Shown here piece by piece: positions 10,737 through 31,934 of a stretch of 64,000 bases of DNA (the first letter of the stretch is position 1; each line of letters begins with the position of its first letter). Source of the stretch: Sandaracinaceae bacterium (GTDB taxonomy: Bacteria > Myxococcota_A > Polyangia > Polyangiales > Sandaracinaceae). The DNA is taken from assembly GCA_040218145.1 (NCBI GenBank), contig JAVJQK010000074.1, positions 62,001-126,000 of the forward strand, in the 5' to 3' direction. Under the pieces are notes generated by a model. The model had not been told where the DNA came from. It was given only the letters and a program-made list of their open reading frames with translations, and ran no database searches. The translations under genes were made by a program, and so were the position numbers.

Positions 10737-12507
10737 AGGACCGAGCCCTGCATGCCCTGCCTTTCTTGGTGGGCCTCTCCCTCGTCGCCTTCGCGGCCTT
10801 CGCCATCGGCCGCTGCTCCGCGCCCGAAGACACGGCGCACGAGCACGCCACCGAGGACACCGTCTGGACCTGCTCCATGCACCCGCAGGTGCGTCAGCCC
10901 GAGGCTGGTCTCTGCCCGATCTGCGGGATGGATCTGATCCCCCTCACCGAGAGCAGCGCGCTCGCCTCCGACGAGGTGGCGCTCAGCCCGCGCGCGGCCG
11001 CGCTGGCCGAGATCCGGACCACCCCCGTGCGCCGCCTGCCGGCGTCGGGCGCGTCGATGCGGCTGCTCGGCCGGGTGGAGCTCGACGAGACCACGCTGGA
11101 CACGGTCACCACGTGGGTCGGCGGGCGCATCGACCGCCTGCACGTGCGCGTCACCGGCCAGCGGATCCGACGAGGCCAGACCATCGCCACCCTCTACAGC
11201 CCGGAGGTCTACGCCGCGCAGCAAGATCTGATCACCGCGAGGCGTCAGCTCGAGCGGCTCGCGGGCGCGAGCGAGCTCGCCCGGGCGGGCGCGCAGGCCA
11301 CGCTGGACTCGGCGCGACAGCGGCTGCGCCTGCTGGGGCTGCCCGACGCGGAGCTGCGCCGGCTCGAAGGGCAGGACGCGCCGTCGCGGCGCATCACGAT
11401 CCGAAGCCCCTTCGGCGGCACGGTGATCGAGCGGCTCGCGACCGAGGGCGCCTACGTCGAGACCGGCTCGGCGCTCTACCGGGTCGCGGACCTCGACCGC
11501 CTCTGGGTGCAGCTGGACGCGTACGAGCCCGATCTGCCGCAGCTCTCGGTGGGGCAGACCGTGCGCCTCGAGGTGCAGGGCCTGCCGGGCGAGCCCCTCA
11601 CGGGCCGCATCGCCTTCATCGATCCGGTGGTGGACGCGCGCACGCGGACCGCGCAGGTGCGGGTGGAGGTCTCGAACCCGGAGGGCGCGCTGCGGCCCGG
11701 CATGTTCGTGGAGGCCGCCCTCGAGGTCGCGGGCGACGCCGACGCGCCGCAGCCGCTGGTGATCCCGGCCAGCGCGCCGCTCTTCACGGGGCAGCGCGCG
11801 ATGGTGTACGTGGCGCAGCCCGGCGCCGATCGGCCGACCTACCGCGCGCGGCCGGTGCGCCTCGGCGCTCGGGTAGGCGACGTCTATCCCGTCGTGGCCG
11901 GCCTCGCCGAGGGCGATCGCGTGGTCACCCACGGGGCGTTCGCCATCGACGCGGATCTGCAGATCCGAGGCGGCGAGAGCCTCATGAACAGCTCCGAGCA
12001 CGACGCGTTCGGCGCCGCCGAGGCGGACGTGCCCGAGACGTTCCGCGCGGGGCTGCGGCCGATCCTCGAGGCCTACCTCGCGCTCCAGCGGGCGCTCGCC
12101 GACGACCAGCTCGAGACCACCATCGAGGCCGCGACCTCGCTCGAGCGCGCCGTGGCCGCCTTCAGCCCGAGCGAGCCCGAGCCGCTCGCGGCCCGCTACG
12201 CGCCCATCGCGGCGCGGCTCCGGATCGAGGCCCAGCGCGTCACCGCCGCAGCCTCCCTGGAGGCGGCGCGTGGCTCGTTCGAGCCCGCGAGCGCCGCGGT
12301 GGCCGACCTCCTCCGCGCCTTCGGCAACCCGCTCGAGACGCCCCTCCACCTCGCGCGCTGCCCCATGGCCTTCGACAACCGCGGCGCCGAGTGGGTGCAG
12401 GACGGCGAGACCATCGACAACGCCTACTTCGGCGCGTCCATGCTGACCTGCGGCTCCCTGCTGGAGACCGTCCCGCCAGGCGGCTTCCTTCCCGCGGAGG
12501 CGACCCG

Positions 12508-12511
<4 letters not shown>
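10733..12511 (+). CDS. cusB: CusB-type periplasmic adaptor of Cu/Ag RND efflux, with heavy-metal-binding domain
   Basis: A 592-residue membrane fusion protein. Residues 5-27 are an N-terminal anchor, H37 and H39 follow, then a short heavy-metal-binding domain WTCSMHPQV...CPICGMDLIP (45-70) with Cys, Met and His ligands. The adaptor body contains the alpha-helical hairpin (LITARRQLERL), barrel-sandwich hybrid (IRSPFGGTVIERL) and beta-barrel. The C-terminal 140 residues match DUF3347, with CPMAFDNRGAEWVQ and FGASMLTCG, adding further Cys/Met ligands. It would take Cu(I)/Ag(I) in the periplasm and hand it to the pump. It overlaps the genes on both sides (ATGA before, GTGA after). Confidence 0.93.
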
Positions 12512-16310
<3,799 letters not shown>

Positions 16311-16314
<4 letters not shown>

Positions 16315-16661
16315 AGCACACACTGATGGCGATCGCGCTCCTCTCCCTCTCGGCCTGCTTCCTCTCCGCCTGCGGCGGCGAAGAGGCTTCATCCGATGAC
16401 GGACGAGTGCACATCGAGGTGAACGCCAGCGGCTACGAGCCCGCGCAGGTGCAGGCCACCGCCGGCCAGCCCCTGACCCTGGTCTTCACCCGCACCACCG
16501 ACGAGGGCTGCGGCCAGGAGCTGGCGATCCCGGCCCACGACATCCGTCGCCGCCTCCCCCTCGACGAGCCGGTCGAGGTGACGATCACGCCCACCGAGGC
16601 GGGCGAGCTCCGCTTCACCTGCGGCATGGACATGTACGACGGCGCGATCGTCGTCCGCTGA
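16311..16661 (+). CDS. Cupredoxin-like lipoprotein of the copper efflux operon
   Basis: A 116-residue protein with signal peptide and lipobox LSAC (Cys21). The mature part is a small beta-sandwich: VHIEVNASGYEPAQVQ, then GCGQEL with C67, H76 in IPAHDI, and a C-terminal FTCGMDMYDGAIVV with C104 and M106, the arrangement of type-1 copper or copper-carrier cupredoxins. It is a likely periplasmic Cu(I) carrier delivering to CusB or protecting the periplasm. The ATG overlaps the cusA TGA, so it is the last gene of the efflux operon; the next gene begins 65 bases later and belongs to unrelated metabolism. Confidence 0.87.
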
Positions 16662-16725
16662 CCCATCGCCGCGAGGGAAAGCCCCCCTTTCCTCCGCCTG
16701 CGACCACGTGAAAGAATCCCCCGAG

Positions 16726-18468
16726 ATGAGCATCACCGAGGAGCTGAAGCGCAGCATCGAGGCCTGGAAGGCGGACGACCCGGACGCGGAGACCGTGTCC
16801 GAGCTCGGCGCCCTGCTCCAGGCCGGCGACGCGGACGGGCTGGAGGATCGCTTCCGGGGGTCGCTCCAGTTCGGCACGGCGGGGCTGCGCGGCCTGCTCG
16901 GCGCGGGCCCCAACCGCATGAACCGCAAGGTCGTGCTCCGGGCGACGGCCGGGCTCTGCGCGCACCTCCTCGAGACGGTGCCGGACGCGAAGGAGCGCGG
17001 GGTCTGCATCGGCTTCGATGGCCGCAAGAACAGCCAGGTCTTCGCGGACGACGCGGCGCGCGTGGTCGCCGGCTTCGGCATCCGGGTCTACGCGTTCGAT
17101 CGCGTGGTGCCGACGCCGGTGCTCGCCTTCAGCTGCCTCGACAAGCGCGCGGCGGCCGGCATCATGGTCACCGCGAGCCACAACCCGCCGGCCTACAACG
17201 GCTACAAGGTCTACTGGGAGAACGGCGCGCAGATCATCCCGCCGATCGACGGCGGCATCGCGAAGGCGATCGCGGCCGTGGGCGGGGTGGCGTCCATCCC
17301 GCAGAAGGATCTGGGCGAGGCCGAAGACGAGGGCCTCTACACGATCCCCTCCGACCAGCTCGAGCGGCGGTACCTCGACGGGGTGCGCGCGCTCCAGGTG
17401 CACCCGGGCCTGCCGCGCGACGTGTCGATCGCCTACACGGCGCTGCACGGGGTGGGCAACGCGCTCGCGCTCGCGGCGCTGGCGGACGCCGGCTTCACGA
17501 ACGTGCACTCGGTCCCCGAGCAGGCCGAGCCAGACGGCGCGTTCCCCACCGTCGAGTTCCCCAACCCGGAGGAAGCCGGCGCGATGGATCTCGTGCTCGC
17601 GCTCGCCGAGCAGCGGGGCACCGATCTCGTGATGGCGAACGATCCCGACGCGGATCGCCTCGCGGTGGCGGTGCGGAGCCGCGACGGCGGCTACGTCCAG
17701 CTCACCGGGAACGAGGTCGGCGCGCTGCTCGGCCACTACCTGCTGGACCAGGGCCCGGCCGGAGACGGGCGCGTGGTCATCAACACCATCGTCAGCTCGC
17801 CGATGCTCGGCGCGATCGCGGAGCAGCACGGCGCGCGATGGGAGCAGACCCTCACCGGCTTCAAGTGGATCGCCAACCGCGCGATGGAGCTGAACAAGAA
17901 GGGCGAGGCCCGCTTCGTCTTCGGCTACGAGGAGGCGCTCGGCTACACGGTGGGCCGCCTCGTCCGGGACAAGGACGGCATCGGCACCGCGGTGGTCTTC
18001 GCGGACATGGCCGCGTGGTGCAAGAGCCGCGAGCGCACCCTGCTCGACGAGCTGGAGCAGGCGTGGCGCCGCTACGGCATGTACCTCAGCCGCCAGGTCT
18101 CCGAGGTGCACCCGGGCGTGGAGGGGGCCGAGAAGATCCGCGCCGCCATGGAGACGGTGCGCAAGGCGCCGCCCGCCGTGATCGGGGGCCACGAGGTGAC
18201 CGCGCGGCTCGACATCCTCACCGCCGAGCGCACGACGAAGGACGGCGCCACGAGCGCCATCGATCTGCCGAAGGGCAACGTGCTCGCGTTCGAGCTCGCC
18301 GGAGGCCACCGCGTGATGCTCCGCCCGAGCGGCACCGAGCCCAAGATCAAGTACTACTTCGACGTCCGCGTGGACATGCAGGACGGCGAGACCGTGGACG
18401 CGGCCAAGGCGCGCGGCGAGGCGCTGCTCGACGCGCTCGCCGACGGCCTCGCCGCGCTCACGGGCTGA
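16726..18468 (+). CDS. Phosphohexomutase (phosphoglucomutase/phosphomannomutase family)
   Basis: A 580-residue alpha-D-phosphohexomutase. The phosphoserine loop is VTASHNPPAYNGYK with catalytic S151, the Mg-binding loop NDPDADRL follows, then the sugar-specificity loop GYEEALGY and the phosphate-binding loop RPSGTEPKIKYY. Length and motifs fit the PGM2-like group, which interconverts hexose- or pentose-1- and -6(5)-phosphates; exact sugar preference cannot be read. It starts at ATG 16726 (an upstream in-frame GTG at 16708 would add six residues). Feeding glycogen and cell-envelope polysaccharide synthesis is the usual role. Confidence 0.92.
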   Translation: MSITEELKRSIEAWKADDPDAETVSELGALLQAGDADGLEDRFRGSLQFGTAGLRGLLGAGPNRMNRKVVLRATAGLCAHLLETVPDAKERGVCIGFDGRKNSQVFADDAARVVAGFGIRVYAFDRVVPTPVLAFSCLDKRAAAGIMVTASHNPPAYNGYKVYWENGAQIIPPIDGGIAKAIAAVGGVASIPQKDLGEAEDEGLYTIPSDQLERRYLDGVRALQVHPGLPRDVSIAYTALHGVGNALALAALADAGFTNVHSVPEQAEPDGAFPTVEFPNPEEAGAMDLVLALAEQRGTDLVMANDPDADRLAVAVRSRDGGYVQLTGNEVGALLGHYLLDQGPAGDGRVVINTIVSSPMLGAIAEQHGARWEQTLTGFKWIANRAMELNKKGEARFVFGYEEALGYTVGRLVRDKDGIGTAVVFADMAAWCKSRERTLLDELEQAWRRYGMYLSRQVSEVHPGVEGAEKIRAAMETVRKAPPAVIGGHEVTARLDILTAERTTKDGATSAIDLPKGNVLAFELAGGHRVMLRPSGTEPKIKYYFDVRVDMQDGETVDAAKARGEALLDALADGLAALTG

Positions 18469-18555
18469 CCTCCACGCGCACAACCGAGCCTGACGCCACC
18501 TCGACGGCCGGTGGCGCGCCTTGGCCGTGCGGTCCGCGCAGAGTAGGCTCGCGGC

Positions 18556-19467
18556 ATGCTTCGATCGGTGCTCGTGCTGGCGTGCCTCGTGATCGCCCTG
18601 CCGCTTCTCCCGGGGGCCGCCTCGGCCCAGGAGGAGGAGCTGTCGGCGATCCGCGAGCTCATCTTCCAGGCGCGCTTCGAGGCCGCGGTGCAGCAGGCCA
18701 ACGCGCTCCTCGAGCGATCGGATCTCGAGGCGGCGGAGCGCAACGCCGCCCTCGAGGTCCTGGCGACGGCGCAGCTGGCCAACCGCCAGGACGGCCCCGC
18801 CAGCGAGACCCTGCGGCTGCTCTACAGCCGTGACCCGGGGCACCGGCTGACGGATCCGGACGCGAGCCCGCCCGTGATCAGCGCGTTCGCGAGGGCGCGC
18901 GAGGCGGCCCCGACGCCGATCACCGTCTCGCTCCAGCACGAGCCGCCAGCCCTGACGCGACGCGAGCCGCCGAGCATCGAGGTGCGGGTGGCGGAGGGCG
19001 CGGACGCGATCGCGGAGCTCCGCCTCGTCTACCGGATCGCCGGCGAGGGCGAGTCGCGTGCGGTGATGAGCCGCCGCGACGATGGCACCTACCAGGCCCG
19101 CATCCCCGTGGTGGGCGACGCCTCGAGCTCGACCGACGTGGCCTATCACGTCGTCGCGCTGGCCCCGTCGCAGGCGGAGCTGGGCGCGATCGGGTCGTCG
19201 GCGCAGCCGCTCCAGGTGCGCATCCCGGCCGAATCGCGCGGGCAGGCAGGCGCGCAGGGGAGCGGACAGGTCGTCGTGCAGCAGGCGCCGACCGCAGCGC
19301 CGGCCGAGCCGGGCGGAGGCAGCGTGGCCGAGGAGTGGTGGTTCTGGACGCTGATCGCCGCGCTCGTCATCGGCGGCGTCACCGTGGGCGTCGTGATCGG
19401 GACCTCCCAGGGCGGTCCCGAGCCGGGCACGCTCGGCAGCGTCCAGCTGATGCAGGTCGAATTCTGA
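18556..19467 (+). CDS. Exported protein with C-terminal membrane helix, unknown
   Basis: A 303-residue protein with a clear signal peptide (LPLLPGAASAQ), a helical N-terminal part with TPR-like character (residues 25-110: EAAVQQANALLERS, LEVLATAQLANR), a middle beta-rich Ig-like domain (about 125-225) and, after a Gln/Ala/Pro linker, one strong transmembrane helix (about 257-280) and a short tail. Such architectures are common in myxobacterial envelope proteins of unknown role. The next TPR lipoprotein gene begins immediately after the stop, so the pair is probably cotranscribed and may act together at the envelope. Confidence 0.8.
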   Translation: MLRSVLVLACLVIALPLLPGAASAQEEELSAIRELIFQARFEAAVQQANALLERSDLEAAERNAALEVLATAQLANRQDGPASETLRLLYSRDPGHRLTDPDASPPVISAFARAREAAPTPITVSLQHEPPALTRREPPSIEVRVAEGADAIAELRLVYRIAGEGESRAVMSRRDDGTYQARIPVVGDASSSTDVAYHVVALAPSQAELGAIGSSAQPLQVRIPAESRGQAGAQGSGQVVVQQAPTAAPAEPGGGSVAEEWWFWTLIAALVIGGVTVGVVIGTSQGGPEPGTLGSVQLMQVEF

Positions 19468-20208: not shown

Positions 20209-20814
20209 CTACTTCTTCTGGTCGAGCAGCGCCTTCGCGAGGGCGCCCCACTTCTCGGCCTCGCGACGCTCCTTGTCGGCGTTCTGCAGCATCATCTGGT
20301 GATGCCGGCGCAGCGCGTTCGGCCCGTCCGGGTCCGGCACGCTGAGCCAGAGCTTGTGCGCGCGGCGTCGGTGGTACTCGCTGATGCCGCGGCCCACGAC
20401 GACGGCCCCCGCGGTGTCGATCGGCTCGTGGAAGTCGCCCGGCAGCTTCATGTGCCGACGGAAGCGGCCCACGTCGACGCGCACCAGGAACGAGAGCCGG
20501 CGCAGATCCGCGAGCGTGAGGTGCGGCAGGATCTCCCCGCGGTCCAGGTCGACCCCCGCCTTGCGCGCGTCGAGGACGACCTCGCGACGCAGGTCGGCGT
20601 CGGGCAGCTCGATGACGAGCTCGCGGATCGGCTCCTCGACCCGCATGCGGTCGAGCCCGCGCAGCTTCCCCGTGACCTTGCTGACCCCCGCGACCGCTGA
20701 CTTCCAGCGAAAGCGCTCGGGTACCCGCGACCGCACCACGCGGACCGCGGTCTTCAGCTCGCCGCGGCGCGCGTGGAAGCTGACCGCGTCCGTGACTCTG
20801 GACCCTTCGAACAT
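20209..20814 (-). CDS. Basic cytosolic protein, unknown
   Basis: A 201-residue Arg-rich protein with no signal peptide or membrane segment and no recognised domain. Start chosen at ATG 20814 because GGAGGT lies 6 bases before it. An in-frame GTG at 20883 overlapping the upstream stop (GTGA) is an alternative that would add 23 residues. It contains an LPHLTLADLRRLSFLVRVDVG segment and a His/Arg-rich C-terminal helix ending in KALLDQKK. It is last in the minus-strand run containing the FHA and PP2C genes, 65 bases below the TPR-AgmX gene. Confidence 0.68.
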   Translation of the reverse strand: MFEGSRVTDAVSFHARRGELKTAVRVVRSRVPERFRWKSAVAGVSKVTGKLRGLDRMRVEEPIRELVIELPDADLRREVVLDARKAGVDLDRGEILPHLTLADLRRLSFLVRVDVGRFRRHMKLPGDFHEPIDTAGAVVVGRGISEYHRRRAHKLWLSVPDPDGPNALRRHHQMMLQNADKERREAEKWGALAKALLDQKK

Positions 20815-20879
20815 GCGTCGACCTCCGACCTCGGTGCATCGCCCGGATGGGCCGGTCGGGTCAAAAAAGGTGCGCTCGG

Positions 20880-22814
20880 TCACTCGGTCGGCGCGACGCT
20901 CGCGGTGACCTCGAAGGGGTACTCGATCTGGATCGATTCGCGGCTGAAGCGCGGAAAGCGGACGCCGCGCACGTGACCCTCCATGCAAGCCGCATAGTCG
21001 GCGCCGGCGTGCTCTCCGAGCAGCTCGGCCTCGCTGACGGCCCCGGTCGCGCCCTCGATCAGCATGCGGAAGCGCAGGGTCGCGCTCAGCTCCGGGTTGC
21101 ACGCCCCGAGGCGGCCGGCGACCGGCGCGAGGGTGCGCACGATGTCCGCGCGCCCCGGCGTCTCGGGCAGGGTCGGTCCGCTCGGCGGCGGCGGAGCGGG
21201 CGCGGCCCGCGTCGGGAGAGCGCTCGCGAGGCCCGGGCTCGGCGCCGGCGCGGGCTCGGGCTCAGTCGCGGGCGCAGGTGCAGGTGCGGGCCGCGGGCCG
21301 AGCCGCGCGAGGCCGTCCCGCGCGACGCGGGTCCCGGGGTCGATCGCGAGCGCGCGACGATACGACGCGGTGGCCGCGCCGACGTCTCCCGCCCGCTCCT
21401 GCGCCGCGCCGAGCGCCGCGAAGAAGCCCGCCTGAGAGGGCGCGAGCTGCGTCGCGCGGACGTACGCCTCCACCGCGCCGCGGGCGTCGCCCTGCGCGAG
21501 CAACGAGGCGCCGAGCCCGGCGTGCGCCGCGGCCTCTCCCGGCTGACGCGCGACGACCTCGCGGTAGGCGGCGGCGGCGAGCGGGAAGCGACGCGCGCGG
21601 AAGTGCTCGCGCGCCTGCGCACGCCACCGCGCCGCCTCCTCGTCCGCGCTCGGGCGCGTCAGCGCCGCCAGCTCGTCGGTCGCGTCGGCGCGCCCCGGCT
21701 GCAGCGTCAGGGCCATGCGATAGGCGGCCTCGGCCCCCGCGCGGTCTCCGCCTCGCGCCAGCGCGCGCGCCAGCCCGACCTGCAGATCGGCGTCTCGCGG
21801 GGCGAGGCGCGCGGCGCGTCGGTAGGCGTCCGCCGCGGCCATCCAATCGCCCTGCTGCATCCGGCTCACCGCGAGGCCCTGCCAGCCGCCGACGTAGCCC
21901 GGCTCCTGCTCGGTGACCCGCGCGTAGGCCTGCGCCGCGTCCGCCCAGCGCCGCGCCTGGTAGTGGTCGCGCGCGCGCCGCATCACGGCGTCACGCGACA
22001 TCGGCTCGACGACGCGCTGGCCGTGGGCCCAGCGCAGCAGGGGCACCGCCGCGCCGCGCACCCCGAAGGTCTCCTGCACGATGGCAGGCGCGTTGCGGCC
22101 CGCCCGCCGCCCGACCTCGCGGACCACGCACTGGACCATCCCGCTGGTGGGACCGAGGTGCCACGCGCGCACCTGGGCCCCCAGATCCGTCAGGCCACCG
22201 GGACACGCGGCGAGGAGCGCGCCGAGCCGCCGGCCACGAGGGGTCTCGTCGATCGACGACGGCACGGACAGGAGCACCGCGTGCATCGCGTCCCGCACCT
22301 CCCGGGCCTGCGCCGCGCTCAGGCCCGCCTGGCTCAGCTCCTGCTCGAGGGCGGCGCCGTCCTCGGGCGGCAGGTGCGGCAGGTCCGCGTCCATGCGGAG
22401 CGACGCGGCGACGAGCGCGTCGCAGTCGCCCATCGGGAGGCGCAGCGTGCGCGCGCAGAAGAGCGCGGGCTCCTGTCCCGACGAGAACAGGTCCTCGAGG
22501 TTCGGCTCCGTGAGCCCCTGTGCGAGCCGCGCGAGCACCTGACGCAGGCGCGCGTCGTACTCCGCGCGCGTGTCCCCGGGGCCGCCGAACAAGCGCACCC
22601 CGAGCCGCTGACGCAGCAGGTCATAGCCGTCCCCGCCGCTCCGCGCGTTCTCGACCAGGCGCTCGTGGGCCAGCCGCGCCAGCGCCCGCGCGGGACCCCG
22701 CTCCATGCGCCCGTGCGTCACGAGACGCCGCACGGCCCCGGCGCTCTGCGCGTGGCCCATGGCCGGCGTGAGACACACCAGCGCGAGCAGACAAGCCTGC
22801 CAGATACTCTTCAT
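20880..22814 (-). CDS. Exported TPR protein with AgmX/PglI-like C-terminal domain
   Basis: A 644-residue protein from ATG 22814 with a signal peptide (LALVCLTPAMGHAQ). Residues 25-290 are helical with scattered Cys; residues 300-510 hold about six TPR units (ARDHYQARRWADAAQAYARV and similar); a Pro/Ala/Glu-rich linker follows; the last 100 residues form a TonB-C-like domain with paired cysteines (LGACNPELSATLRFRMLIEG, YAACMEGHVRGVRFPRF), as seen at the C-terminus of AgmX/PglI gliding-associated proteins. The location is periplasmic. It sits 37 bases below the FHA-trypsin gene in the same direction, hinting at an envelope complex governed by that regulator set. Confidence 0.83.
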   Translation of the reverse strand: MKSIWQACLLALVCLTPAMGHAQSAGAVRRLVTHGRMERGPARALARLAHERLVENARSGGDGYDLLRQRLGVRLFGGPGDTRAEYDARLRQVLARLAQGLTEPNLEDLFSSGQEPALFCARTLRLPMGDCDALVAASLRMDADLPHLPPEDGAALEQELSQAGLSAAQAREVRDAMHAVLLSVPSSIDETPRGRRLGALLAACPGGLTDLGAQVRAWHLGPTSGMVQCVVREVGRRAGRNAPAIVQETFGVRGAAVPLLRWAHGQRVVEPMSRDAVMRRARDHYQARRWADAAQAYARVTEQEPGYVGGWQGLAVSRMQQGDWMAAADAYRRAARLAPRDADLQVGLARALARGGDRAGAEAAYRMALTLQPGRADATDELAALTRPSADEEAARWRAQAREHFRARRFPLAAAAYREVVARQPGEAAAHAGLGASLLAQGDARGAVEAYVRATQLAPSQAGFFAALGAAQERAGDVGAATASYRRALAIDPGTRVARDGLARLGPRPAPAPAPATEPEPAPAPSPGLASALPTRAAPAPPPPSGPTLPETPGRADIVRTLAPVAGRLGACNPELSATLRFRMLIEGATGAVSEAELLGEHAGADYAACMEGHVRGVRFPRFSRESIQIEYPFEVTASVAPTE

Positions 22815-22851
22815 GTCGCCCCCAGGTACGCCGAAGGTGTGCTCGAAGTTC

Positions 22852-24501
22852 CTACGGCGGCAAGCCGGCGAGGAGCTGCAGGAGCAGATCGGCGCGCACG
22901 CCCCAGGCGTAAGGGGTCTCACTCTCGACCGTGCGGGCGACGCGGGTGTTCGTGTCGACGACGCGCCGCCGGGCCCGGTAGTTGCCCGCGTTGATGGCCA
23001 CGACGCGGCCCTGACGGTCGAAGATGGGGGAGCCCGCGGTGCCCTCGTCCGAGAAGGCGCTGTGGGAGACCAGGTGGCGGAGCGCGGCGTTGCCGGGGTC
23101 GCTCCCGTCGAAGGCGGTGAGCCGGCCCACCACCCCGGTCGAGATGCCCGCGGCCGGGGCGCCCTCCTCCGCGATCGCCGCCGGGAAGCCCAGCACGAAC
23201 ACGTCGTCGCCGGTTCGCAGCGCGACCAGCTGCGCCATGTCCGCCAGCTGCGCCTGCTGTGAGGTCGGGGCGCTGACCCGGAGCAGCCCCACGTCGGGGC
23301 TCGCGGGCACGTCGGACGCGTACTGGGGGTGGCGCCACATCCGCTCGATCTGGAGCGCCGCGCCTCCGCCGTTCGGGACGGCGCGGACCTCGCGGCTGCG
23401 CGTCATCTCTCGCTCGAGCGCGCCGACGCAGTGCGCCGCGGTGGCCAGGATGCGCTCGCGCACCGCGAACGCGCTGCAGATCACCTCTCGCTGGCCGCCG
23501 CTGCGCGTGGAGAGCAGCACCCAGACCGCCTGCCCGTTCTGCTCGGCGATGACGGTCCCGGTGGCCGACTGCTCCTCCGAGAGCTGGTCGTTGAGGGACT
23601 GGATGCGCTGCTCGAGCTCCTGTCGCTCGGTCGACTCGTCCACGCCGAGGTCGGCGATCTCACGCTGGAGCCGTACGTTCTCGTCGCGGAGCGACTGCTC
23701 TTGCCAGCGCGCGTAGAAGAACAGGGCGATCACCGCGCCCAGCGTCAGGAACAGCAGGAGGCCGAGCAGGCCCATCGCGATCTTCAGGCCCCGCGAGCTC
23801 GACTGCGCGGCCTCGTGCGCGACGGCGCGGATGAACGCGGTCGAGCGGTTGCCGCCCTGCTGCCGCTGCGCGTCGGCCTGCTGGAGCGCGGCCTGGATCA
23901 TCATGCCGACCGTGCGCTGCCCGTAGCGCGGCCCTCCGGAAGGCGGGGCGGACATCGGCGGCCCATGTGGAGGCGCGTGTCCGGGCGGCGCGTACCCCGG
24001 GGTCGAGATCGGCGCCGGGCTCGGCTGCCCCGCGAAAGGCGAAGGCGGCGGCGTCGGGTGCGCGACCTGTCCGAGCGCGGGCGGCTGGATCGCGTCGTAC
24101 TTCTGCTCCACCGGCGTGGCCGGCCCCGTCGCCCACGCCCCGGGGGCGCTGACCGGTGTCGCCTCGGCCGTCATCTGCCCAGGCCGGCCGGGAGAGCTCC
24201 CCGGGAGCTCCACCCGCACGCGCGGCCCGCCGACCCCGAACTCGATCTCGTCGCCGTCGGTGAGCGTGTGGCGCGTGACCGGCTGACCACGCACGAGCGT
24301 CCCGTTGCGGCTGCCCACGTCGACGAGCACCCAAGCCCCGGACTCGCGCCGGATCTCGGCGTGGCGCCCGGAGGCGTCCAGGTCCGCGTGCGGGTCGAAG
24401 GCGACCTCGTTGTCGGGCAGGCGCCCCAGCCGGATCACGTCACGGTCGAGCTCGAGCACCCGGCCCGTGTGCGCACCGAACGTCTGGTGGAGGCGGATCA
24501 T
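22852..24501 (-). CDS. FHA domain, transmembrane helix and trypsin-like protease fusion
   Basis: A 549-residue protein with three parts: an N-terminal FHA domain (1-100; RLGR, SGRHAE, GSRNGT) that binds phosphothreonine peptides in the cytosol; a Pro-rich linker; one transmembrane helix (241-263); a coiled coil (268-312); and a trypsin-like domain (320-549) with H357 in TAAHC, D403 in SPDVGLL and S491 in GTAGSP, so the triad is complete and outside the cell membrane. This would couple intracellular phosphorylation to periplasmic proteolysis. Only 17 bases separate it from the upstream PP2C gene. Confidence 0.9.
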   Translation of the reverse strand: MIRLHQTFGAHTGRVLELDRDVIRLGRLPDNEVAFDPHADLDASGRHAEIRRESGAWVLVDVGSRNGTLVRGQPVTRHTLTDGDEIEFGVGGPRVRVELPGSSPGRPGQMTAEATPVSAPGAWATGPATPVEQKYDAIQPPALGQVAHPTPPPSPFAGQPSPAPISTPGYAPPGHAPPHGPPMSAPPSGGPRYGQRTVGMMIQAALQQADAQRQQGGNRSTAFIRAVAHEAAQSSSRGLKIAMGLLGLLLFLTLGAVIALFFYARWQEQSLRDENVRLQREIADLGVDESTERQELEQRIQSLNDQLSEEQSATGTVIAEQNGQAVWVLLSTRSGGQREVICSAFAVRERILATAAHCVGALEREMTRSREVRAVPNGGGAALQIERMWRHPQYASDVPASPDVGLLRVSAPTSQQAQLADMAQLVALRTGDDVFVLGFPAAIAEEGAPAAGISTGVVGRLTAFDGSDPGNAALRHLVSHSAFSDEGTAGSPIFDRQGRVVAINAGNYRARRRVVDTNTRVARTVESETPYAWGVRADLLLQLLAGLPP

Positions 24502-24518
24502 CGGGGCCCGCCGCGGTG

Positions 24519-26717
24519 TCAGAAGGGATTGGAGGGCAGAGGCCCGTCGCGCTGACCGCTGCGACCGCCCGAGCGTCCGCTCCCACGCTGCGGCCGCTGG
24601 GTGTTGGGCTCCGGTCGGCGCGTCTCCGGCGGAGGATCGGCCGGACCCTCCACCTCGAGCTGACCGGCCGGCACGCTCAGGTCGACGTCGACGGCCGAGC
24701 CAGCCTCCAGCGTCACGGTCTGGCGGGCGACCTGGGCCTCCCCGTCGCGCGCCTCGAGCTCATACGCTCCCGGCGGCAGCTCCAGCTCCATGCCGTCCTC
24801 GAGCGGCCCGTGCAGCTGCCCGTTCACGTACAGGGTGCCCGCAGACAGATCGGTCGAGATCGCGATGGAGCCCTGATCCGCCGTCTCGGACGGCAGCGCC
24901 TCGGCCGTCGGCTCGTCGAGGGTCTCGTCCTCCAGCGGGACGGGGACCTCTTCCTGTCCGATGGGCTCCTCCACGATGGGCTCGGGCGGCGTCGCGTCGC
25001 CGTCGGCCGCGCCGTCGGTGCCGAGCCCCCTCATGGCCAGCCACGCCCCCGCGATGAGCGCGAGGAGCACGATGACCAGCAAGAGCAGGACCCACGCCTT
25101 GCTCCCACCAGAGGAGGGCGAGGCGACCTCGACGTCGTTCGGATCGCCGTTGCGCTTGACGTCCGCGCCGGGCTTGGTCGCCCCGGCCTTCATCGACGTC
25201 TCGCGCGGAGGCATCGAGGGATCGCGCCCCGACTCGTCGGGCGGGAGCGGATACTGCTGGTAGAGCACCTTCGCCGACTCGGCCTCGGAGAGCCCGTCCC
25301 CGTCGAAGTCGGCGATGATGACCGTGATGTTGTCGTGGCCGCCGCCGGCGTTGGCCATCTGGATGAGCTTCTGCGACGCCTCCTCTTGAGGCCGGGTGCC
25401 TTGCAGCACCTCCTTCATCATGTCGGCGTGCACGAGCCCGCAGAGCCCGTCCGAGCACATCATCAGCCGGTCGCCCTTGCGGACCTCGAGGAAGGTCAGG
25501 TCGACCGTGACCTCTTCGGTGGTGCCGAGCGCCTGGAGGATGATGTTGGAGTGCTCGAAGGCCTCCGCCTCTTCCTCCGTGAGCTGACCGGCCTCGATGA
25601 GCTGGTTCACCAGGGACTGGTCCTTGGTGATCATCTCGAACTGATCGCCGCGCAGGATGTAGGCGCGGCTGTCGCCCACCTGCCCCACGAAGAGCACGTT
25701 GTCCACGAGGCCGGCCACGGTGGCCGTCGTGCCCATGCCCCGCCGGGTGCGGTCCATCTTGGCCGCGCTGAAGATGCGGTAGCCGGCCTCCTCGATCGCG
25801 CGGACGAGGCGACGCGCGAAGTCGTCGCGGTCGCCCGGCGTGGCGCTGCTCATCACCTCGTGCACGGTGTCGACGGCCATCTGGCTCGCGACCTCGCCCG
25901 CGGCGGCGCCGCCCATTCCGTCGCACACGGCGAAGATCAGGCCCCGCTCGCCCACGACGGTCTCGCGCGGCGTCTCGTTGTCGCGCACCTCCGCGTCGAG
26001 GTCGGCGACGGTGAAGTTGTCCTCGTTGTGCTCGCGCACGAGGCCGACGTCCGTGCGGCCGTAGTAGACGACCTCGATCGGTCCGGGCTCGGCGCTCGAC
26101 GAGACCTCGAGGGTCGCGTCTTCGAGCGTCGCGGTGGGATCGTCCGCGGCGGGCGCGTCGGCGCCAGCCGCGTCCGGCTCCTCCGCGGCCGGCTCGGCCG
26201 GCTCACCGTCGCCATCGGCGTCCGACGCGACGACGACGGCCGGCTCCGCGGGCAGCGGCGGCTCGGACACCAGCGGCGGCTCGGCCGCTTGGGAGCCGGC
26301 CGCTTGGGAGCCCGCCGCTTCGGAGCCCGCCGCTTCGTCCGGCGTCGGGGGAGAGGCGTCCGCGCTCGGTCCGCCGTTCGACCCGTGGGCCGGGGTCGCC
26401 GCCGGTAGGCCGGCCCAGCGCCGCGTGAGGTCGGCGAACGAGCCGGGCCCGCTGCGGAACCCGTCGGCGCCGTTGATGGGGGAGGCCGTCGCCGGTTCGG
26501 GCGCGCCCGACGCGAGCGGCGGCTCGCTCACCAACGGCGGCTGCTTGGCCGCGCCCTTGGCCTGCTGGTCGGTCTGCGCGCAGCCGGCCTCGGCCGCGGG
26601 GGCCGGCTCGCCGCCCGCCTCGGTCTGGTCGTCCACCTCGGCGAGGGCCGCCACGACGGCGTCGGTGAGGCTGGACCCCGAGTGCGAGGCCGGACGCTTG
26701 GACTTCTTACCGCTCAT
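24519..26717 (-). CDS. PP2C-family Ser/Thr phosphatase, membrane-anchored, with PEGA-like C-terminal domain
   Basis: A 732-residue protein. A 210-residue acidic, Pro/Ala-rich N-terminal extension contains repeated PPLVSEPPL and GSQAA units. The PP2C domain (about 217-470) has REHNEDN, VCDGMGGAAAGE with metal-binding D266, GMGTTAT, GQVGDSRAY, CSDGL and GGHDNIT, all required for a two-metal phosphatase. A transmembrane helix lies near residue 550 and a PEGA-type beta domain (LYVNGQLHGPLEDG) near the end outside. It should dephosphorylate Ser/Thr kinase targets. Its ATG overlaps the stop of the zinc-ribbon/FHA gene. Confidence 0.93.
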   Translation of the reverse strand: MSGKKSKRPASHSGSSLTDAVVAALAEVDDQTEAGGEPAPAAEAGCAQTDQQAKGAAKQPPLVSEPPLASGAPEPATASPINGADGFRSGPGSFADLTRRWAGLPAATPAHGSNGGPSADASPPTPDEAAGSEAAGSQAAGSQAAEPPLVSEPPLPAEPAVVVASDADGDGEPAEPAAEEPDAAGADAPAADDPTATLEDATLEVSSSAEPGPIEVVYYGRTDVGLVREHNEDNFTVADLDAEVRDNETPRETVVGERGLIFAVCDGMGGAAAGEVASQMAVDTVHEVMSSATPGDRDDFARRLVRAIEEAGYRIFSAAKMDRTRRGMGTTATVAGLVDNVLFVGQVGDSRAYILRGDQFEMITKDQSLVNQLIEAGQLTEEEAEAFEHSNIILQALGTTEEVTVDLTFLEVRKGDRLMMCSDGLCGLVHADMMKEVLQGTRPQEEASQKLIQMANAGGGHDNITVIIADFDGDGLSEAESAKVLYQQYPLPPDESGRDPSMPPRETSMKAGATKPGADVKRNGDPNDVEVASPSSGGSKAWVLLLLVIVLLALIAGAWLAMRGLGTDGAADGDATPPEPIVEEPIGQEEVPVPLEDETLDEPTAEALPSETADQGSIAISTDLSAGTLYVNGQLHGPLEDGMELELPPGAYELEARDGEAQVARQTVTLEAGSAVDVDLSVPAGQLEVEGPADPPPETRRPEPNTQRPQRGSGRSGGRSGQRDGPLPSNPF

Positions 26718-27925
26718 GCGGCGCCTCCGGACTCGAAGCGGAAGAGGTGCCGGCCGACACGGAATTGGTCGCCGGGGCGGAGGGCGCGCTCGCCCCGGAA
26801 TCGCACCGCGGTCCCGTTGGACGAGCCGAGGTCGCGGAGCACGAAGCGGCGGCTCGCTCGATCGACGGTGATCGCGGCGTGTCGTCGAGACATGAAGGGG
26901 TCATCCGTGAAGACCAGGTCACCCTGTTCCCGGCCGACCACGGTCTCGTCACGATACAGGTAATGCACGTCCCGGCCCACCCCTTCCGTCGTGTACTGGA
27001 CCAGGCGCGCGATGCGCTGCACCTCGGGGGTACCGAAGACCATCACTCCATGTTGTGTCGCGGGACCCAGGGGTAGCTCCGTCTCGGCCAGCACCTCGAA
27101 CCGGAGGACCTGCTGACCGAGCAGCATCATATCACCGTCGGACAGGTCCACGGGCTCCCGGATGCGGACATAGACCCCGTTGACGCTGTCGAGGTCGCGG
27201 ATCAGCAGCTGTCCGGCCTTCTGAACGACCCGGGCGTGACGCGGGGAGAGGTAGGGATCGTCGCCGAGGATGATCTGGCCCTCCTCGCGGCCGATGTCCG
27301 TGACCTCGCCATAGATGGGGTAGCGGCGCCCGTCCGAGCCGTCTTTGAGGATCGAGACGAGGGTGAGCGGCGCCGTGCCGTCCGCGGTCGCGACCGGGCG
27401 GGGTCGCTCCGACGGCGCGCGCTGCACGGCCGGGGCGGCGGCCACGGGCGCCGAGGCGATCGGCGCGGCGGCCACGGGCGCCGAGGCGACGGGCGCCGCA
27501 GCGACGGGCGCCGCGGGTGGCGCGTCCGGCTGCGCGGCCGGCGCGTCCGCGTAGCGGGCTCCGCAGAACTTGCAGAACTCCGCGCCCGGATCGCCCACGC
27601 CGTAGCAACGCCAACAGACGGTGCCCTTGCCACCGGCGGCGGCGGCGGGTGGGGCCGCAGCGGCCGACGGGGGCGACGCCGCCGCCTCGGCCTCGAGCTG
27701 GAACCCGCAGTTGTTGCAGAAGCGCATGTGCGTGGCGTTCGTCGCCCCGCACCGCGGACATGGCCGCTGATCACTCTTGCCACGATCGCGCGACAGGCCC
27801 GTGGGAGGTGTGGCCATGCGGCTCGCTCCCTCGGCCGGTTTCCAGTCCCCCATGCGTGAGCCGCAGTCCTGGCAATACAGGCTCGACTCGGGGTTCTGTG
27901 CGCCGCAGTTCTTGCAGACGACCAT
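26714..27925 (-). CDS. Triple zinc-ribbon, double FHA domain protein
   Basis: A 403-residue cytosolic protein from ATG 27925 (a longer frame upstream lacks support). Three CxxC...CxxC zinc ribbons are at C4/C7/C18/C21, C56/C59/C70/C73 and C104/C107/C118/C121. An Ala/Pro repeat linker (130-185) follows, then two FHA domains: 185-275 (IGREEG, SPRHAR, DSVNG) and 320-403 (VGREQG, SRRHAA, GSSNGT). Both keep the Arg, Ser/Arg-His and Asn of the phosphothreonine pocket. It could bridge two phosphoproteins. It is translationally coupled to the PP2C gene. Confidence 0.9.
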   Translation of the reverse strand: MVVCKNCGAQNPESSLYCQDCGSRMGDWKPAEGASRMATPPTGLSRDRGKSDQRPCPRCGATNATHMRFCNNCGFQLEAEAAASPPSAAAAPPAAAAGGKGTVCWRCYGVGDPGAEFCKFCGARYADAPAAQPDAPPAAPVAAAPVASAPVAAAPIASAPVAAAPAVQRAPSERPRPVATADGTAPLTLVSILKDGSDGRRYPIYGEVTDIGREEGQIILGDDPYLSPRHARVVQKAGQLLIRDLDSVNGVYVRIREPVDLSDGDMMLLGQQVLRFEVLAETELPLGPATQHGVMVFGTPEVQRIARLVQYTTEGVGRDVHYLYRDETVVGREQGDLVFTDDPFMSRRHAAITVDRASRRFVLRDLGSSNGTAVRFRGERALRPGDQFRVGRHLFRFESGGAA

Positions 27926-27989
27926 GCCGCGCGCAGTGGAACCCGGGGCGGGGGCGCACGTCAAGCACGACGCCGTCGCGGGCGCTCGG

Positions 27990-28661
27990 TCAGTCTCCGC
28001 TGGAGGCGACGATGACCAGCCCGACGTGGACCTGGAGGGCGAAGTTGAGCCCGAGGCCCTCCGACCGACGGGTCCGATCGCGGCCCGTGATGAAAGGGCT
28101 CGTGGTGAAGAGCCAGCCCGAGAGCCCGGCGTCGAGGGAGACCGACTCGGTCAGCTCGAGCTCGAGCCCCGCCCCCGCCTCGAGCGCGCCCCCGATGGTC
28201 GACACGAGGCCGCTGTCGCCGAAGACGAGGGCGCCCGCGCCGATGTGCACCGACGGATGCCACTGGTGCTCGTACGCGAAGACGTACCTCAGGGCGGCCC
28301 GCACGGCCTGGACCACGCCCAGCTCGAACACGCCGCCGCTGTCGACGAACCAGGCGTCGTAGCCGACCAGCACGCCGAGCCCGAAGGGCCAACGCCGCTC
28401 GATCTCGATGCCCGCCGCCGCGCCCGCGCCCAGCACGCAGAGGGAGTCCCCTGGGCAGATGTCGGTCTTCTCGAGCGGGAACATCCCCGCGAGGCGCACC
28501 CCGACGAGGAGCTCGGGGTCGCGATCGATCGGGGCCGGCGGAGGCTCGACGTGGCGCGCCCTCGCCGCGCCCGCCGACTCCTGCGCGGAAGCGTGCAACG
28601 GACCCATCACGGCCAGCCCGAAGACCCACACGAACAGCGCGTGACGACGCATCCGGAGCAT
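27990..28661 (-). CDS. Small outer membrane beta-barrel-like protein
   Basis: A 223-residue protein with a signal peptide (VMGPLHASAQ). The mature part alternates short beta strands with glycine turns, contains a Cys pair (DICPGDSLC) and has many aromatic/hydrophobic alternations (VLVGYDAWFVDSGG, LRYVFAYEHQ), which fits an 8- to 10-stranded outer membrane barrel. It is first in the minus-strand run that continues with the FHA/PP2C genes (64-base gap) and diverges from the acidic-protein gene at 28774. Function unknown. Confidence 0.78.
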   Translation of the reverse strand: MLRMRRHALFVWVFGLAVMGPLHASAQESAGAARARHVEPPPAPIDRDPELLVGVRLAGMFPLEKTDICPGDSLCVLGAGAAAGIEIERRWPFGLGVLVGYDAWFVDSGGVFELGVVQAVRAALRYVFAYEHQWHPSVHIGAGALVFGDSGLVSTIGGALEAGAGLELELTESVSLDAGLSGWLFTTSPFITGRDRTRRSEGLGLNFALQVHVGLVIVASSGD

Positions 28662-28710: not shown

Positions 28711-28738
28711 TTGACAGGGTGGTCCCCCCTCCTATATT
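28711..28738 (+). promoter_or_regulatory. Sigma-70-type promoter of the acidic protein gene
   Basis: A perfect -35 TTGACA (28711-28716), a 16-base spacer and a near-consensus -10 TATATT (28733-28738), 35 bases before the ATG at 28774. This is the best match to the housekeeping consensus noticed in this very GC-rich window. Confidence 0.75.
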
Positions 28739-28773: not shown

Positions 28774-29142
28774 ATGGAAATCTACCTGCGAAAGCGCGCC
28801 GTCCGGCAGATTCGGCTCTCGGCCACGGATGCGATCGAGGAGGGTGACACCGACACCCTCCGCGAAGACATCATGGACGCTTTCAACGACGAGCAGATCG
28901 AGGAGATCGAGCGACGCATCGACTCCGGCGACTTCTACGAGTTCGTCTCCGACGTGCTCGACGAGTGGGCGGGCGACGAAGTCGACGACCTCTTCGAGAT
29001 CCTCGAGCAGGCGCTCTCCGACGTCGACGTGGAGGTCAAGTACAACGACCCCGAGTTCGACGACGACGAAGAGGAAGAAGAAGACGAGGAAGAGGACCTC
29101 GACGACTACGACGTCGAGGAGCCGGCCGAAGAGGAGCTCTAG
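28774..29142 (+). CDS. Small acidic protein with poly-Asp/Glu tail
   Basis: A 122-residue protein starting at ATG 28774. The N-terminal 15 residues are basic (YLRKRAVRQIR), residues 16-85 are an acidic helical domain, and from about residue 88 the chain is nearly all Asp and Glu. No signal peptide. The charge pattern resembles nucleic-acid mimics or acidic chaperones, but there is no family match by eye. It has its own near-consensus promoter and an intrinsic terminator, so it is monocistronic and probably strongly expressed. The odd composition in an otherwise Arg-rich proteome is notable. Confidence 0.85.
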   Translation: MEIYLRKRAVRQIRLSATDAIEEGDTDTLREDIMDAFNDEQIEEIERRIDSGDFYEFVSDVLDEWAGDEVDDLFEILEQALSDVDVEVKYNDPEFDDDEEEEEDEEEDLDDYDVEEPAEEEL

Positions 29143-29289: not shown

Positions 29290-30297
29290 TCAGGACAGCG
29301 CCGCGAGGGCCCGGTCGATGTCTTCGCGCGTGATGTGCAGGTGCGTGACCGCGCGCACCATCGTCGACGTCATCGCGTTCAGGAGCACCCCGGCCTGGCG
29401 CGCGCGCTCCACGAAGCCGTGCGCGTCCTCCACGTCGAAGCAGACGATGTTGGTGTGCACGCGGTCGACCTCGATGGACACCTCGTCGAGCTGCGCCAGG
29501 CCCTCCGCGAGCCGGCGCGCGTTGTCGTGGTCCTCGGCGAGGCGCCCGAGGTTGTGCTCGAGCGCGTGCAGCGCGGCGGCGCAGAGGACGCCGACCTGGC
29601 GCATCGCCCCCCCGAGCATCTTGCGCTGCCGACGCGCCTCCTCGATGGCCGCGCGGCTGCCCACGATGGCGGAGCCGACCGGCGCGCCCAGCCCCTTCGA
29701 GAAGCAGACGCTCACCGTGTCGAAGCCGGCCGCGAGGGACGCCGGGCTCACTCCATCGCGCACGGCGGCGTTCCAGATCCGCGCTCCGTCGAGGTGGGTC
29801 GCGAGGCCGAGGGCCTTGGCCCGGGTGATCACGCGCGCCTGCTGCGCCGCCGGCCACACGACGCCCCCGCCCCGGTTGTGGGTGTTCTCGAGCGCCACCA
29901 GCCGCGTGCGCGGCATGTAGAACGCCGCGGGCGGGCGGAGCGCCGTCTCCAGCTCGGGCACATCGAAGAGCCCGCCTCGCCCCGCGATCGAGAACTGCAC
30001 CCCGGCGATCGCCGCCGCCGCCCCCGACTCGTAGAGCATGCAGTGGGCGTCCTCCCCGACGACCACGTCGTCGCCCGGGCGACAGTGCACGAGGAGCGCG
30101 ATCTGGTTGCCCATCGTGCCCGAGGGGACGAAGAGCGCCGCCTCCTTGCCGAGCAGCTCCGCCACCCGCGCCTCGAGCGCACGCGCGGTGGGGTCTTCGC
30201 CGTAGATGTCGTCGCCCACCTCCGCCTGCGCCATCGCTTGGCGCATCGCTGGGTCGGGTCGGGTGACGGTGTCCGATCGGAGGTCGATTGTGCTCAT
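29290..30297 (-). CDS. ltaE: Low-specificity L-threonine aldolase
   Basis: A 335-residue PLP enzyme of the threonine/beta-eliminating lyase family that cleaves L-threonine or L-allo-threonine to glycine and acetaldehyde. It begins [11 protein letters not shown], a hallmark of the family; H85 stacks on the cofactor, D170 in HLDGAR pairs with the pyridine nitrogen, and K201 in [14 protein letters not shown] is the Schiff-base lysine. Full length for the family. It lies alone on the minus strand, with the histidine kinase gene 31 bases upstream in the same direction. Confidence 0.95.
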
Positions 30298-30328: not shown

Positions 30329-31825
30329 TCAGGAGGACGCGCGCACCGAGCCTTCGCGGGGCCGGCGGAGCGCGGCGCGGATCGTCTGCAGCACGTGGTC
30401 CCGGCGGAAGGGCTTCTCGAGCAGCGGGAAGCGCTGCGAGTCGACCAGCGCCCGCGCGCGGGGCGTGAACGCGCCCCCGGTCATCAGGACCACGCGCTCC
30501 GACAGATCGGGGCGGCGCGCGTCGATGTGCTCCACCAGGTCCATGCCGGTCACGTCCGGCATCATGAGGTCGGTGATCACGAGGTCGGGGCTCGCGCTGG
30601 CGAGCGCCCCGAGCACCTCGGCGGGACCGACGACGCGGACCTCGTAGTCGGCGCGCAACATGCGCTCGAGCGCGCGCGCCACGAGCGGCTCGTCGTCGAC
30701 CACCAGGATGGAAGCCCGCCCGGCGATCTCGGCGTCCGGCAGGGGTGAGACGGCGCGGGCGAAGATGCCGGTCGGCAGGCCCACGGGCATCGAGATCCGG
30801 AGCCGCTTCTCCCCCGCGTGGCGCAGCACGTCGAGCTCGCCCCGGTGGTCCGCGACGACCTGGTGCGCCACCGCGAGCTCGAGCGCGGCCGGCTCGTCGC
30901 CGAGCTCGAACGGGTCCAGGCCCGCGACGCTCGGCGCGTTGGTCGGGTAGGCGATCTCGAGCACGACGCGGTGGCCGTCCACGCGCGCCTCGAGCCCGAT
31001 GGCACACTCCGCGCGCGCCTCGATCGCCGCGCGCGCGAGCAGCCTGGTGAACATGCGCAGGAGCGTCTCGGGCCGCCCCGCGATGCGCGGCAGGGCGTCA
31101 CCGCTGCGGCGCACCGGGACCTCGACCCCCGTCTCCGACACCGCCGCGCGCTGGGCCGCGTCGAGGAGATCTCCGAGCTCGATGGCCGCCTCTTGTTCGT
31201 GCCGTCCGCCGGCGAGCAAGGCCAGGTCGGAGACGATGTCGGCCGCGCGCATCGCGCTGTCGTACGCGCGCTGCGCCGCCTGGAGCAGCTCGTCCAGGTC
31301 CACCGCGCGATCGCGCGGCCCGAGCCCCTCGACGACCTCCCCCAAGCCGTCCAGCACCACCGTCAGCGGGTTGTTGATCTCGTGCGCGACGCCTCCGGCG
31401 AGCGCGCCCACCGCGGCGAGCTTCTCCGCCCGCGCGAGCTGCCGCTCGAGGCGGCGGCGTTCGGATAGATCGCGCCCCAGCACGGCCGTCGCGGGCTCGC
31501 CGTCGAAGGTCACGCGGATGGCGGCGACCTCCGCGATGACCTCGGTCCCGTCGGCGCGAACGAGCGACTCCTGCGTCGGCGCCAGGTGCGTGGCCTGTCC
31601 GCCCTCGAGCGCCTCGATCCGCGCGAGCACCCGGTTGCGATCGCGGGGGTGCACCATGCCGATCGCGCTCGTCCCGATCAGCGCCTCGGCGGACGCGGCG
31701 CCGAGCAGCGCGGCGGCGGCCGGGTTCGCGTAGATGACGCGCCCGCCCCGGTGCACCACGACGGCGTCCGGGAGCCGCTCGATGAGCAGTCGGAAGCTGG
31801 CGTCGGAGGTGGGGGCGAGTGACAC
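30329..31825 (-). CDS. Hybrid histidine kinase with degenerate ATPase domain
   Basis: A 498-residue protein: PAS domain (about 5-125), HisKA helix with phosphoacceptor His in [11 protein letters not shown] (near 148), a region in the place of HATPase_c, then a receiver (about 370-485) with [13 protein letters not shown] and EKPF. The ATP-binding domain lacks the N-box Asn ([12 protein letters not shown]), the G1 DxGxG and the G2 GxGLGL. It may therefore need another kinase or act as a phosphatase. I chose GTG 31825, close before the PAS domain; GTG 31912 is possible but overlaps the tRNA promoter. No partner is adjacent. Confidence 0.82.
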
Positions 31826-31905
31826 GTACAGGACCCGGCCCCCCAGCCGAGAACAGGTATACCCGATCAGGGACGACCGCGCACGAGACCCCAGCTCGTG
31901 CCGTC

Positions 31906-31934
31906 TTGACACCCCCCGGAGCGTGCGGTAGTTC
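31906..31934 (+). promoter_or_regulatory. Promoter of tRNA-Thr
   Basis: TTGACA (31906-31911), a 17-base spacer and TAGTTC (31929-31934), which places initiation close to 31941, eight bases before the tRNA. The -10 is weak, the -35 perfect. Confidence 0.55.

Follow-up and report, generated by a model that had tools for sequence, protein, structure and literature searches.

Here, we describe a run of six genes on the minus strand of a 64,000-nucleotide (nt) stretch of DNA (the window; contig JAVJQK010000074.1, C74 in our numbering, positions 62,001 to 126,000) from the 11.06-Mb, 73% GC genome of a Sandaracinaceae bacterium (GCA_040218145.1). Read from position 28661 to 20209, these genes encode a predicted outer-membrane barrel, a zinc-ribbon/FHA-FHA protein that we call ZnFHA2 for short, a PP2C phosphatase, a protein joining an FHA domain, a transmembrane segment (TM), and a trypsin fold (FHA-TM-trypsin), a TPR protein, and a protein without assigned family. 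FHA domains recognize peptides with phosphothreonine, from which PP2C enzymes take the phosphate off again. Across the order, two FHA readers, ZnFHA2 without a TM and a second protein anchored by one, stand side by side with a TM-anchored PP2C with intact catalytic motifs. We consider it rather probable that the run represents a vertically kept, membrane-tied phosphothreonine module or hub, in which a non-catalytic trypsin fold serves as a binding domain reporting the state of the periplasm or the cell wall.

The host genome holds 76 FHA and 17 PP2C matches, so that a lone neighborhood of this kind could have arisen by chance, and its conservation is decisive. ZnFHA2 was located directly upstream of the PP2C in 48 of 53 loci, which were chosen by similarity and whose counts are not prevalences. 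The full triplet, with the FHA-TM gene directly downstream of the PP2C as well, was present in 29 of them, and the barrel gene lay upstream in 35. Since most loci were fetched via an FHA-trypsin or ZnFHA2 relative (three came from a contig scan with the PP2C), the adjoining PP2C is largely independent evidence. A ZnFHA2 orthologue at an E value of 1e-60 or below was detected in 84 of 115 genomes drawn evenly from the order; of the 53 loci, the five lacking ZnFHA2 all belong to small genomes of genus g9. The ZnFHA2-PP2C pair, with overlapping genes, is kept in other families of the class (f13 to f16), and no PP2C was found alongside six zinc-ribbon/FHA relatives examined in other classes of the phylum. 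An earlier reading of the window, made from its sequence only, had proposed that these genes form a module and not a chance cluster and had named gene order in related genomes as one check; the order recurs, so that the half of the refutation condition concerning synteny is ruled out. The tight packing perceived in that reading was confirmed by the gene coordinates, with spacings from the barrel to the last gene of 64 nt, a 4-nt overlap, 17 nt, 37 nt, and a 4-nt overlap. These short or negative gaps are consistent with an operon. The start codons of ZnFHA2 and the TPR protein were corrected; the former is likely the ATG at 27925, a TTG at 27964 being an unlikely start.

ZnFHA2 contains three cysteine pairs (CKNC/CQDC, CPRC/CNNC, and CWRC/CKFC) and two FHA domains (Pfam FHA, 3.4e-25; DZR, 3.3e-15), in keeping with its first description as a triple zinc-ribbon, double FHA adaptor. 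Residues of the phosphothreonine pocket (GR, S..RH, and NG) are invariant in both of its FHA domains among 12 orthologues, and GR, S..(R)H, and NG are also invariant in the FHA domain of the TM protein. Its match to the FhaB model (87 bits) is under the cutoff of 125. The PP2C passes the curated Stp1/IreP model (233.9 bits; cutoff, 230), and its metal-binding motifs NEDN, CDGMGG, SDGL, and DN are invariant in 17 orthologues. It had been described as a membrane PP2C with an external PEGA-like domain, of which the phosphatase stands, the membrane part being a single TM. The PEGA assignment is weak, with PF08308 matching the external domain (approximately residues 612 to 690) in 3 of the 17 orthologues, at best with 2.5e-4, and the window copy not among them. 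The combination of a TM and a weakly PEGA-like external domain occurs within the window's clade; the PP2C of the f5, f7, and f12 genomes read ends in a C-terminal TM or a short tail.

The sequence-only reading credited the FHA-TM-trypsin protein with an intact catalytic triad (H357, D403, and S491). The presence of FHA, TM, and trypsin-like domains in one protein was borne out (Pfam FHA, 2.7e-16; Trypsin_2, 1.8e-15). The chain consists of an FHA domain (residues 1 to 95), a Pro-rich linker, the TM (approximately residues 241 to 265), a possible coiled coil, and the trypsin fold (residues 311 to 549), and no PDZ domain was found in it with Pfam. H357 and D403 had been correctly identified, but the nucleophile position is occupied by Ala489 (codon GCG) and not by S491, which lies two residues farther on and occurs in intact and Ser-less homologues alike. 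The window motif reads GTAGSP, compared to GTSGSP or GSSGSP, accompanied by NAHC and DVG, in 13 of 13 genomes of families f5 and f7, and the family profile aligns the motif serine with GNSGS of the solved glutamyl endopeptidase 1p3c. Alanine at this position was also found in SHBB01000469.1 and G217 (assigned to the same species; the two may be one assembly) as well as in G002 and G004, which represent separate genera, and a sequencing error is thus very unlikely. G004 additionally lacks the catalytic histidine (SAQC, with Gln in its place). The trypsin domain of the window is 62 to 65% identical to the dead copies of G002 and G004, and its structure model (predicted local distance difference test [pLDDT], 91.7) is HtrA-like, with HtrA1 as best Foldseek match (E value, 5.9e-12). 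Judged by its sequence, the window copy is a pseudoprotease. Of the pathway proposed earlier, the phosphothreonine readers and the eraser hold by family, but the periplasmic protease is not supported, with the catalytic serine missing in the window copy and the whole domain lost in relatives.

Triads are intact in families f5 and f7. In our tree, from which the copies of genus g162 and of G229 were left out, every member of the window-holding clade of 21 rows (support, 99/96) is dead or devoid of the trypsin domain. The serine is changed to alanine in the window's subclade, NAT131, G042, G052, and G029 show loop deletions and loss of the histidine, and the active-site motif of G013 is degenerate. 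The trypsin domain is absent and the FHA-TM part kept in G001, G006, G003, G007, G034, G010, and small f4 genomes. Four g162 genomes (11 to 13 Mb) carry two adjacent genes, for a TM-trypsin protein without FHA and then for an FHA-TM-trypsin protein; the former has an intact motif (NAHC, PDVAL, and GGNSGSP), and in the latter serine is replaced by asparagine (GSNGSP). Here, the pseudoprotease would have originated while an intact paralogue without FHA was retained as its neighbor. In G229, from another genus of the same family, the serine is present in both copies. G093, from another family of the class, possesses a degenerate copy (AAEC) without the serine. Taken from the sequences, these differing changes (Ala, Asn in g162, and the degenerate lineage) suggest that FHA-linked copies lost catalysis on at least three separate occasions. 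We tentatively propose, as possible but not quite probable, that the FHA-tethered trypsin fold is a recurrent non-catalytic periplasmic receptor, repeatedly derived from active FHA-proteases, that passes the envelope state to the reader/eraser pair.

Adjacent protease and FHA-linked genes at locus L123 (11700 to 14240; G253), and also at L135 to L137 and L141, form a natural protease/pseudoprotease pair. We rejected a strict exchange, by which the PP2C would gain the PEGA-like domain when the protease dies. This rule held in the first approximately 30 loci and corresponds to one event in one clade by the tree, and it fails in G093 and the g162 genome G253, in which a dead FHA-linked copy is accompanied by a PP2C without the PEGA-like domain.

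In relatives, gene context connects a Hanks-type kinase with both readers and eraser. In G093, ZnFHA2, a PP2C ending in a TM, an FHA-TM protein with degenerate trypsin domain, and a kinase are encoded in this order on one strand, with overlapping PP2C and FHA genes and the kinase gene approximately 10 nt downstream of FHA-TM. This run completes the writer/reader/eraser set. The kinase has a zinc ribbon of its own and a C-terminal TM but no PASTA repeats, and its best NCBIfam match is PknB_PASTA_kin (277 bits; cutoff, 450). In G126, the FHA-TM gene and a similar kinase gene are convergent to the ZnFHA2-PP2C pair. A search of the host genome for an orthologue of the G093 kinase gave many matches, the best with approximately 43% identity and none standing out. 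The kinases near positions 690 and 2109, named earlier as candidate partners, are 17 to 20 kb away, and singling them out is not supported: the genome has 150 or more kinase matches, and these two are no better supported than the others. The f5 run extends further, to a gene for an FHA-GAF-nucleotide-cyclase protein (L048, 10960 to 12798, and relatives), whose domains other than FHA were assigned from its sequence and from weak matches to models; this protein joins phosphothreonine reading to a cyclic-nucleotide enzyme.

In the working model suggested by this arrangement, a Hanks-type kinase, unlinked in the host genome, would phosphorylate threonines on the module proteins and their targets, the FHA proteins would gather phosphothreonine targets at the inner membrane, and the PP2C would reset the phosphorylation. 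Beyond the membrane, the non-catalytic trypsin fold would bind a ligand; this fold and the PEGA-like domain of the PP2C would jointly inform the cytoplasmic FHA and PP2C domains about conditions in the periplasm or the wall, with the outer-membrane barrel as a possible envelope partner. We infer that the trypsin fold is probably a sensor in this lineage. Where relatives have an intact triad, their version of this protein may instead be a protease whose location or activity depends on phosphothreonine binding. The notion of a hub is modeled on the actinobacterial pstP/fha/pknB genes and would hold by analogy.

Several observations weigh against such a module. No kinase is encoded in the window's run, none of the at least 150 kinase matches in the host genome was singled out as a partner, and the FHA-TM gene after the PP2C is absent in most f12 genomes examined. 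Furthermore, the trypsin domain was dropped in several relatives and may thus be on its way out in this lineage rather than a working sensor. Taken further, this would make the domain an evolutionary relic being lost without function, so that only FHA-TM and the PP2C matter. Its disappearance from the close relatives G001, G006, G003, G007, and G034, which keep the rest of the run, and the uniformly dead or domainless state of the 21-row clade fit such a decay. However, in the window the domain is open and of full length, it is as similar to the copies of G002 and G004 as stated above, it is confidently folded in the model, and non-catalytic copies arose and stayed in separate lineages; we regard a mere relic as rather unlikely. 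A window copy that has remained proteolytically active, using S491 or a different residue as its nucleophile, appears very improbable. It has retained H357 and D403 as well as the glycines surrounding the active-site loop, but S491 is two residues beyond the nucleophile in intact and Ser-less homologues, and the copy of G004, 62% identical in the trypsin domain, has lost the histidine too.

The genes might also be co-inherited neighbors with separate jobs, their order reflecting genome stability, as is conceivable given that the unrelated threonine aldolase and phosphoglucomutase genes are likewise syntenic. This explanation seems improbable to us, as the ZnFHA2-PP2C pair persists with overlapping genes in f13 to f16, where those neighbors were not found alongside, and a kinase joins the same run in G093. 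In PADLOC, the trypsin domain weakly matches RT-protease systems (8e-9), which brings to mind an anti-phage or conflict system using kinase/phosphatase signaling and a protease. No other member of the module matches PADLOC, and in most genomes of the order the run has a constant position on the chromosome, unlike defense islands, which leaves a defense role with hardly any credibility.

The named parts of the putative phosphothreonine module all come from known families. As a whole, it is similar to the actinobacterial hub and to the kinase/phosphatase/FHA sets of the type VI secretion system (T6SS) but identical to neither. The actinobacterial genes for a TM-anchored PP2C (PstP), FHA proteins, and PknA/PknB lie together at a locus connected with cell division and the synthesis of the wall (PMC6554272). 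As in pstP/fhaA/fhaB/pknA-pknB, a TM-anchored Stp-type PP2C and FHA proteins occur here in one locus, with a PknB-like TM kinase in line in G093. In contrast to the actinobacterial locus, the FHA protein carries zinc ribbons, the second FHA protein has a trypsin-like ectodomain, and an outer-membrane barrel is part of the run; the G093 kinase ends in its TM without PASTA repeats, and the window run encodes no PASTA kinase. Neither rodA nor pbpA was seen among the immediate neighbors (threonine aldolase, histidine kinase, TPR proteins, and phosphoglucomutase). The PpkA/PppA/Fha set of the T6SS similarly uses a kinase, a PP2C, and FHA proteins together. In agreement with the sequence-only reading, no T6SS genes were found alongside the module, which is separate from the T6SS set: VipB of the host genome is encoded only on contig C75, along with other PP2C and FHA genes. 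The match to the TagH model is far under the cutoff.

Residues 311 to 549 share the fold as well as the His and Asp of the triad with HtrA/DegP S1 proteases, but differ from these by alanine in place of the catalytic serine, the lack of a detected PDZ domain, and the tether to a cytoplasmic FHA domain. A precedent for the binding role proposed here is the single-pass signaling protein RsgI9 of Clostridium thermocellum, a TM anti-sigma factor whose S1C protease-like ectodomain binds cellulose (PMC12203970). Ligand binding is a feature of RsgI9, whose cytoplasmic part is an anti-sigma domain, where the protein described here has FHA; the two stem from different phyla, and their likeness does not imply a common origin. 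The PRK14559 phosphatase model (NF011149) matches one window protein with its N-terminal zinc ribbon and the PP2C with its C-terminal part (137 bits). Both matches are under the cutoff of 374, and the parts joined on one chain in PRK14559 are distributed over two proteins here.

The sets of eukaryotic-like kinases in myxobacteria are very large, yet few conserved kinase/phosphatase circuits have been mapped in these bacteria. Its retention through most of the order makes the module a good candidate for a core circuit with a small, testable set of partners. One survey names the pkn4 region as the sole kinase region that is syntenic among seven myxobacteria (PMC2887360). What appears to be new is that the run is conserved order-wide and that FHA-linked trypsin domains repeatedly became pseudoproteases; no open-access paper on this operon or on FHA-linked pseudoprotease signaling was found, subscription literature being outside the search. 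Orthologues at this one locus range from intact proteases through pseudoproteases to proteins that have lost the domain, a natural series by which the role of a dead protease is directly testable. The features of the window discussed here are compiled in the table.

Table. Features of the gene run and its surroundings, with positions in the window
Feature	Position	Strand	Basis or remark
Predicted 8-stranded outer-membrane beta-barrel, 223 aa	27990..28661	-	First gene of the run; structure model, Foldseek, syntenic orthologues
ZnFHA2, triple zinc-ribbon double FHA adaptor, 403 aa	26714..27925	-	ATG start; Pfam; phosphothreonine-pocket residues
Stp1/IreP-type PP2C with a single TM and a weakly PEGA-like external domain, 732 aa	24519..26717	-	4-nt overlap with ZnFHA2 gene
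FHA-TM-trypsin-fold pseudoprotease (by sequence)	22852..24501	-	Pfam, alignment, structure model
Ala489, codon GCG, at catalytic-serine position (GTAGSP)	23035..23037	-	Alignment with orthologues
His357 (AAHC), kept in window copy	23431..23433	-	Alignment; Gln in G004
Asp403 (PDVGL), kept in window copy	23293..23295	-	Alignment
TPR protein, 644 aa, ATG at 22814, possible AgmX/PglI-like tail	20880..22814	-	Accessory
Conserved protein, 224 aa, no family assigned	20209..20883	-	Sixth gene; orthologues near module
Gene for 122-aa acidic-tailed protein, divergent	28774..29142	+	Conserved across the order
Sigma-70-like promoter TTGACA-16-TATATT (11/12)	28711..28738	+	Ahead of acidic-protein gene

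The barrel protein has no Pfam match. Its model (pLDDT, 85) predicts eight antiparallel strands, and the best PDB matches in Foldseek are NspA (1.9e-7) and OmpA, which supports the small outer-membrane barrel assigned earlier to the start of the run; a hydrophobic N-terminal stretch is visible in its sequence. The gene downstream of FHA-TM-trypsin had been taken to encode a TPR/AgmX-type periplasmic protein. The TPR part of this description stands, and the tail matches the AgmX/PglI model NF033768 weakly (20.8 bits; cutoff, 40). The TPR gene adjoins FHA-TM in few relatives only (G052, G013, and G225). For the last protein of the run, no Pfam or NCBIfam match was obtained; its orthologues are encoded in the neighborhood in f1, f2, f4, and f9, and directly after the PP2C in G022, G033, and G008. 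An open reading frame at 16615 to 19149 (-), considered as a further downstream member by tblastn, was discarded as the antisense shadow of the phosphoglucomutase gene (16708 to 18468, +). This gene and the threonine aldolase gene (29290 to 30297) are of unrelated function and also syntenic.

For the acidic-tailed protein (MEIYLRKRAVRQIRLSATDAIEEGD...), no family match was obtained; its gene keeps this position throughout most of the order. The promoter ahead of its gene is unusually good for a genome with 73% GC; 0.1 such sites were expected in shuffles of the 9.9-kb region, and TTGACA is kept upstream in several relatives. A long open frame on the plus strand (10537 to 16314) starts with MRMRQRARMRQRAR repeats, is of low complexity, and possibly has no real gene start. 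Upstream of the threonine aldolase gene, 30329 to 31912 (-) encodes a PAS-histidine kinase-receiver hybrid resembling the myxobacterial EspA/EspC (170.9 bits, under the cutoff).

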